NCBI RefSeq assembly: GCF_002934605.1
Contig: NZ_PTJC01000005.1
Span: 496,001 to 560,000, forward strand
DNA: 64,000 nucleotides
Direction: 5' to 3'
Source of the DNA: Neolewinella xylanilytica
Lineage (GTDB): Bacteria > Bacteroidota > Bacteroidia > Chitinophagales > Saprospiraceae
The translations under genes were made by a program, and so were the position numbers. This document shows, one piece after another, positions 17,879-18,823 of this stretch (position 1 is the stretch's first letter; each line of letters opens with the position of its first letter). The notes under the pieces were generated by a model. That model did no database searches. It was given only the letters and a program-made list of their open reading frames with translations, and was not told where the DNA came from.

Positions 17879-18406
17879 TTAGCTAACGGATTGGTTGCCG
17901 CTATCTTCCGTGCTTTCAGCCCGGGAAAAGAGCTGACGGATTCGGTCGTCGTCCCGACGGTGGGGAGTGAGTCCGCGCGAGCTACAGTACTGTTGGTGGC
18001 GCGCTTCGGCCCGGTAGAAGGCCGGCACGCAGCCGACGTCGGTGGCGGGATGAAAACCGTGGGCCCGGAGGGTGGCGAGCATCCGTCGGGCAAGCTGTAG
18101 CTGGCGATCGTCCTGCACACTGAAAACGGCCGACCGGTATTGTCCGCTGCCCTTTCCCCGATCGATTTCGAAGTTGTGGAGCGCGAAAAACTCCGCCAGT
18201 AACTGCTCGGTCGGTAAGGTGCGGGTATCGTATTGAACGGCCACGACCTCCGCGTGGCCGGTATCTTTGGCACAGACGTCGTGGTAGCTGGGGTTTTCCG
18301 TACGTCCACCCGCAAAGCCTACCTGAGTGGCAATCACGCCGGGAAGTTGCCGGAGATGGTATTCCCTTCCCCAGAAGCAGCCGCTGCCGAGTAGCAGCGT
18401 TGCCCT
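17879..18406 (-). CDS. msrA: Peptide methionine sulfoxide reductase MsrA, start codon unclear
   Basis: This MsrA domain of ~175 codons reduces methionine-S-sulfoxide. It has the catalytic motif GCFWG (Cys codon 18379-18377), [23 protein letters not shown], and the distal [12 protein letters not shown]. It has no ATG, GTG or TTG between the preceding in-frame TGA (18409-18407, the msrB stop) and the catalytic motif. The frame after the stop reads AGG GCA ACG CTG CTA CTC. The first usable GTG (18337) would delete the active-site cysteine. Translation may start at CTG 18397 or ACG 18400, run through from MsrB, or the sequence may contain an error. The stop is 8 bp before iscS. Confidence 0.75.
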
Positions 18407-18823
18407 TCAGGCTTCGTTCGTGTCGAGGGAGCCGTGCTCCGCTTCGTACTTCTCCCGGGGGATGAACTTGATGGACAGGCTGTTCACGCAGTGGCGGGTG
18501 TTCTTTTCGGTGAAGCGCTCTCCGTTGAATACGTGGCCCAGGTGGCCGCCGCAGTTGTTGCACAGAATTTCTACGCGCCGTCCGTCCGCGTCCTTTACGT
18601 GCTGAACGGCGTTGGGCACTTCGTCGTCGAAACTCGGCCAGCCGCAGCCGCTGCTGAATTTGTCGTGGCTATCGTACAGGGGCGCCTCGCAACGCCGGCA
18701 GACGAATACGCCGTCCTGCTTGAAGTTGTTATACTCGCCGGTAAAGGGCATTTCGGTTCCCTTGTTGGCGATCACGCGTTCTTCCTCCTTAGTGAGGGTG
18801 TTCCAGTTATCTTTCGTTTTCAT
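18407..18823 (-). CDS. msrB: Peptide methionine (R)-S-oxide reductase MsrB
   Basis: This 138-residue MsrB reduces methionine-R-sulfoxide. The structural zinc ligands are present (C42, C45, C88, C91), as are the catalytic C112 in NTRHCVNS and a resolving-type C60 in [12 protein letters not shown] 18823 ([10 protein letters not shown]) is chosen. The longer open frame up to 19036 runs through a palindromic repeat region and looks noncoding. It ends in TGA, and the msrA domain continues immediately afterwards in the same frame. A physical or functional MsrB-MsrA fusion is therefore conceivable. Confidence 0.95.

Follow-up and report, generated by a model that had tools for sequence, protein, structure and literature searches.

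The msrB-msrA locus of Neolewinella xylanilytica is probably (we put the probability at roughly 0.7) a gene for an MsrB-MsrA fusion in which the two domains are joined across a conserved, leaky UGA codon; programmed readthrough there would give MsrB together with some MsrB-MsrA protein. Judged from comparison of the sequences across the genus, the conserved UGA junction is a real recoding signal and not an artefact, and it is probably functional. The locus lies in a stretch of 64,000 nucleotides, here called the window (contig NZ_PTJC01000005.1, positions 496,001 to 560,000 of the forward strand), from a genome of 5.38 Mb whose assembly is 97.86% complete. Its features, numbered from the first letter of the window, are as follows.

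18407 to 18823, minus strand: msrB (SelR domain), from ATG at 18823 to the stop UGA, 138 amino acids; from the sequence, the open reading frame list and Pfam

18490 to 18488, minus strand: codon of the MsrB catalytic Cys, within msrB

18407 to 18409, minus strand: in-frame UGA, the proposed readthrough site and residue 139 of the joint product; from the sequence and the genus comparison

18403 to 18409, minus strand: conserved junction UGA-A-(G/A)-G-G; from the genus comparison of UGA junctions

17879 to 18406, minus strand: msrA (PMSR domain), 175 codons plus TAA at 17881 to 17879, with no ATG, GTG or TTG before the catalytic Cys

18377 to 18379, minus strand: codon of the MsrA catalytic Cys in the GCFWG motif, tenth codon past the UGA and an invariant alignment column

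18335 to 18337, minus strand: GTG, where the msrA frame has its earliest standard start, past the catalytic Cys codon

The first-pass annotation had described msrB and msrA as lying in the same frame, parted by TGA only and with no standard start for msrA, and both the sequence and the open reading frame lists bear this out. Past the UGA, the msrB frame continues with AGG GCA ACG CTG CTA CTC GGC AGC GGC TGC TTC TGG; Pfam assigns SelR to the first part of the locus and PMSR to the second. A start at GTG 18337 would yield an MsrA protein devoid of its catalytic Cys. A gene finder requiring ATG, GTG or TTG would begin MsrA past this residue or miss it altogether, as the open reading frame list of the window does. 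When the UGA is read as Trp, the window product scores 344.8 bits against the PRK05550/NF004042 model for bifunctional MsrB/A (cut-off 330), whereas the two halves alone score 198.3 and 139.5, below the cut-off; the single uninterrupted frame that characterizes PRK05550 is broken here by the UGA at 18409 to 18407. An iscS-like gene, recognized by sequence motif, follows msrA in the window and at 8 of 20 other loci scanned. Elsewhere in the genome, two further msrA paralogues possess ordinary upstream starts (G000:C4:49879-50319 and G000:C1:2256229-2256651).

The junction was compared across 21 genomes of the genus (Neolewinella/Lewinella), that of N. xylanilytica included. In 17 of them, msrB and msrA share one frame and are joined by an in-frame UGA, and in 16 of these 17 there is no ATG, GTG or TTG between the UGA and the Cys codon; the exception (G010, locus L012) carries an in-frame TTG six codons past the UGA. 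An error of sequencing or assembly in the window, which the first-pass annotation had listed as an option, would take only a single base, but the same junction occurs in 16 other genomes, including those of six named isolates (Lewinella sp. IMCC34191, IMCC34183, and W8, Neolewinella litorea HSMS-39, N. antarctica DSM 105096, and Lewinellaceae bacterium SD302). This already refutes such an error, the probability of which is practically nil.

The four remaining genomes carry other stops. In G008 the junction stop is UAG and msrA starts with ATG; in G020, UAA and then UAG stand at the junction and msrA starts with TTG. In G016 (locus L021, G016:C359), the stop is UAA, msrB is open, and msrA is a remnant with six internal stops. 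In G018, msrB ends in UAA and no msrA motif was found within 700 bases in an assembly that is 88% complete; its best msrA match anywhere is at the level of a paralogue (3.8e-22). Thus, UGA occurs in all 17 genomes that depend on it, a group itself defined by UGA, and in none of the four that do not (Fisher test, 1.7e-4, a value made too strong by shared ancestry). Since the species share ancestry, all junction counts given here are non-independent.

The use of a standard msrA start by two species of the genus, G008 and G020, counts against readthrough. Relatives with a plain msrA start had been named beforehand as evidence that would overturn an unusual junction. Such relatives exist, G008 alone having an ATG, yet UAG or UAA replaces UGA there, and in a protein tree of 20 rows from the genus and 7 from outside it this own-start pair of sister genomes represents one change nested among UGA species. 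The same tree, which resolves many deep branches poorly, shows UGA species throughout the genus. Locus L016, with msrB cut by a contig end, was omitted from the tree, and L021 and L171 were entered with MsrB only.

We considered whether the species with UGA might simply share a nonsense mutation that struck an ancestral fusion gene, with msrA no longer made. Decay of msrA is possible, as seen in G016, two other msrA genes exist in the genome, and another gene of the source genome is interrupted by TAA (see below). However, MsrA has diverged to 46% identity among the 17 UGA species with its frame still open and its active-site residues invariant, and over 50 codons past the MsrA Cys pN/pS is 0.28. 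Moreover, decay in G016 accompanies UAA and not UGA. We therefore regard a relic as very unlikely.

Constraint is also evident directly past the stop. Over codons +1 to +8 after the UGA, pN/pS is 0.41 in frame, as opposed to 1.79 and 1.50 when the two alternative frames are read; this value and that for the codons past the Cys come from the 13 of 17 UGA loci that have 27 bases between the UGA and the Cys codon. Among these 13 loci, codon +1 is AGG in 11 and AAG in 2, and codon +2 encodes Ala in 11, via three synonymous codons. When all 17 UGA junctions are counted, AGG stands at +1 in 13, AAG in 2, CCG in 1, and ACT in 1. Arg-Ala or Lys-Ala stands at the equivalent place in 6 of 17 uninterrupted fusions among named loci, and also in L032 and L033; because of this recurrence, a basic residue at +1 suits a fusion. 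Arg at +1 is always encoded by AGG (13 of 13 junctions), a codon making up 3.5% of Arg codons in the source genome. Such constant use of a rare codon points to a constraint at the level of the bases as well, for example on A as the +4 base. This base is A in 16 of 17 junctions and C in one, whereas in the genomic background, where UGA ends 80 of 310 mechanical open reading frames (400 kb), A comes next in 15 of 80. When the read-through product, with the UGA as residue 139, was modelled with AlphaFold2 (17 sequences, mean pLDDT 73.6), a strand was placed at residues 140 to 147. Because this predicted strand directly follows the UGA residue, codons +1 to +3 would be part of the MsrA fold, and a start at codon +4 would cut the strand.

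These observations bear on the main rival of readthrough, termination-reinitiation, in which ribosomes ending msrB restart at CTG, CTC, ACG, or AGG/AAG right past the UGA and produce a separate MsrA. Stop and restart would adjoin, a start at codon +1 would give MsrA a normal-looking terminus, the codons AGG and AAG found there in 15 of 17 junctions are each one base off ATG, and one UGA species, G010, has its in-frame TTG. On the other hand, no position holds one near-cognate start in all species: at the 13 loci codon +4 is CTC, CTG, CTT, ATA, or GTA, codon +3 is more variable still, and in two junctions beyond these 13 codon +1 is CCG or ACT. A CTG or ACG start, as suggested in the first-pass annotation, is disfavored for this reason, neither codon being held at a fixed place across species; of the three options offered there, the UGA readthrough fusion is the best supported. 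Reinitiation requires neither UGA nor the same phase, and both are kept, while a standard start combined with a different stop is confined to the G008/G020 pair. The AGGG past the UGA is an unlikely Shine-Dalgarno sequence, since Bacteroidia ribosomes, as reported in PMC9976891, do not recognize such sequences. Taken together, we consider reinitiation unlikely.

The bases around the stop also allow for a hop, in which the Ala peptidyl-tRNA leaves GCC before the UGA and lands on GCN two codons past it. GCC UGA ARG GCN is indeed found in 9 of 17 UGA junctions, but the matching codon pair is missing in the other eight (L004, L012, L015, L016, L017, L018, L019, and L022), making a hop very improbable indeed.

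We favor programmed readthrough because it explains what is seen directly at these loci: an architecture with both domains in the same phase, the missing standard start, the constraint right past the UGA, the choice of UGA and its retention together with its 3' context, and the use of a different stop in genomes whose msrA has its own start or has been lost. In-frame constraint after a stop without a standard start (16 of 17) and conservation of stop identity and 3' context are both what readthrough predicts. In this mechanism, most ribosomes would halt at the UGA and release MsrB, whereas a minority would insert an amino acid at UGA-A and stay in the same frame. The inserted residue would probably be Trp, delivered by near-cognate tRNA-Trp. 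The outcome would be an MsrB-MsrA enzyme of about 35 kDa as the only source of MsrA from the msrB-msrA locus. We infer the occurrence, level and regulation of readthrough, the inserted residue, and selection on the ratio of MsrB to fusion from the comparisons above.

Of the three stops, UGA is misread most frequently, and an A right after it promotes misreading by tRNA-Trp in E. coli, according to PMC5289835. E. coli reporters described in parts of PMC11126739 show that UGA readthrough can reach high levels under stress, with mostly Trp inserted; to the contrary, section 10 of the same article states that +4 G, and not A, raises readthrough in E. coli. With no suppressor tRNA seen, the level of readthrough at this locus may be low, and because the genome has two more msrA paralogues with ordinary starts, the cell may not need the MsrA of this locus. 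A convincing stimulatory RNA structure, frequent in programmed stop codon readthrough though not obligatory, was sought by consensus folding of 13 sequences and not found, nor was a pseudoknot; the consensus fold of the junction is weak (-19.15 kcal/mol over 265 columns, 6 of 29 pairs with two-sided change).

The same fusion would be produced by any of three routes of special UGA decoding, namely, selenocysteine insertion, reassignment of UGA, or a suppressor tRNA. For selenocysteine, selA was found in none of the 21 genomes of the genus and tRNA-Sec above the cut-off likewise in none, and the candidate selenoprotein UGA, which requires both SelA and tRNA-Sec, was rejected. As to a suppressor or reassignment, no UCA anticodon was present in 39 tRNA matches (one lacking a clear anticodon) from an assembly 97.86% complete, the tRNA list of which may be incomplete, and the one tRNA-Trp(CCA) has an anticodon stem of 5 pairs and not 4. 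UGA still serves as a stop, ending 80 of 310 open reading frames, and with neither a UCA nor a 4-pair-stem tRNA-Trp detected, reassignment to Trp was rejected as well. We judge special decoding extremely improbable. The match lacking a clear anticodon is a low-scoring tRNA-like sequence (L248, positions 99 to 172) on an 11.8-kb contig (G000:C8). The prfB gene for RF2 (L259, G000:C2:1108376-1109425) encodes LRGYLDVES in one open frame (TAC CTG GAC), and the UGA frameshift of RF2 autoregulation, looked for in this gene of the source genome, is absent.

How exceptional the interruption is within the genome was gauged with 362 mechanical open reading frames from the window and a further 400 kb (464 kb). 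A simple count of start-less stretches takes in antisense frames and is uninformative; it was replaced by a control based on same-frame extensions. Extensions of at least 80 codons follow 49 of the 362 open reading frames, and 23 of the 49, msrA included, have no start before codon 14. Among the other 22, four contain a Pfam domain over the cut-off, and in three of these a start precedes the domain, at codons 84, 25, and 14. The remaining one is thioredoxin-like (L233:10115-11437, minus strand; G000:C1:250115-251437) and looks coding before its first ATG at codon 61; its sequence suggests a single gene that is interrupted by an in-frame TAA. Among the 20 other genomes of the genus, only G014 has a relative, and that one is uninterrupted. 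An in-frame interruption alone is thus not unique to msrB-msrA, with one other in 464 kb, but since the thioredoxin-like case is not conserved, the conserved UGA between msrB and msrA is of another kind. Control rows for codons -8 to -1 and for msrB -60 to -20 consist of unaligned columns, as msrB tails differ in length, and nothing was drawn from them.

A possible second route to recoding emerged in four other genera of the family. Eight of 31 loci examined have a run of nine or ten A at the junction, with msrA in the -1 frame.

L034-L037, L178, L179, L182, and L185: A9 or A10 run just before the MsrA Cys codon

The genomes concerned, paired by genus, are G074 and G169, G077 and G171, G084 and G176, and G144 and G217. 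On such a run, a -1 shift would give a seamless MsrB-MsrA fusion. At seven of the eight loci, translation of msrA could also begin at an ATG or GTG that lies in its frame within msrB; at L037 (the Phaeodactylibacter MAG of L096), a UGA intervenes and leaves msrA with no standard start. In several other genera, msrB and msrA overlap and msrA has an ATG. Should UGA readthrough and -1 slippage both take place, selection probably acts to keep a mixture of free MsrB and fusion. We tentatively speculate, with considerable doubt, that the msrB-msrA junction of this family might be a hot spot of recoding, at which UGA readthrough in Neolewinella and -1 slippage on A9/A10 in the four genera both set the ratio of free MsrB to fusion, possibly with a rise under stress as termination weakens. 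If so, a methionine repair enzyme would be tuned by the accuracy of translation itself.

To our knowledge, a bacterial housekeeping gene with lasting readthrough of an ordinary stop, and with neither selenocysteine nor a suppressor tRNA involved, has rarely been documented. In a few searches of the open-licence literature, judged by titles and the beginnings of abstracts, we found no description of readthrough between msrB and msrA, and the terms "Lewinella" and "readthrough" together retrieved no paper. The genus offers natural variants, with UGA species, the own-start pair, and a UAA species with decayed msrA, so that small reporters can test both the mechanism and its use.

Uninterrupted MsrB-MsrA fusions are the closest known counterparts of the locus. 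A sample of 395 genomes of the phylum gave 82 matches at 1e-66, 80 of them outside the genus and 73 of these 80 from one family (f38). At the junction, 79 of the 80 are uninterrupted; the lone interrupted match, G886, has two stops and an ATG. In a sample of 396 genomes of the order (24 matches), the five two-domain matches outside the genus (G042, G468, G507, G523, and G526) are uninterrupted. Among 80 named loci from the genome scan, a motif test found 17 uninterrupted fusions, 10 cases of msrB close upstream but unfused (members of the genus included), and 53 with neither. No start-less in-frame UGA junction was seen outside the genus in the phylum and order samples or the named loci, samples which leave room for it elsewhere. 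The Neolewinella locus thus has in common with PRK05550/NF004042 the order of SelR and then PMSR, a similar linker, and both catalytic Cys residues, but has a UGA at the junction where its relatives outside the genus nearly all have one frame. The fused MsrAB found in Helicobacter pylori and other organisms likewise carries both reductases on one chain, with the order reversed in H. pylori; according to PMC8000184, fusions with MsrB first are also known, and fused enzymes have higher activity than single ones.

As a device for making two products, the locus resembles gammaretroviral Gag-Pol, for which portions of PMC5009743 describe a short and an in-frame C-terminally extended product from one mRNA, with a conserved stop and a set ratio. 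In contrast to Gag-Pol, the gene in question here is that of a chromosomal bacterial repair enzyme, the stop is UGA and not UAG, no pseudoknot was found, and readthrough is deduced from sequence. Bacterial genes with in-frame stops, treated in PMC7918605, similarly combine such a stop with coding constraint around it. Many of those stops are described in sections of that work as short-lived, whereas the Neolewinella UGA has been kept across most of the genus while MsrA diverged to 46% identity.
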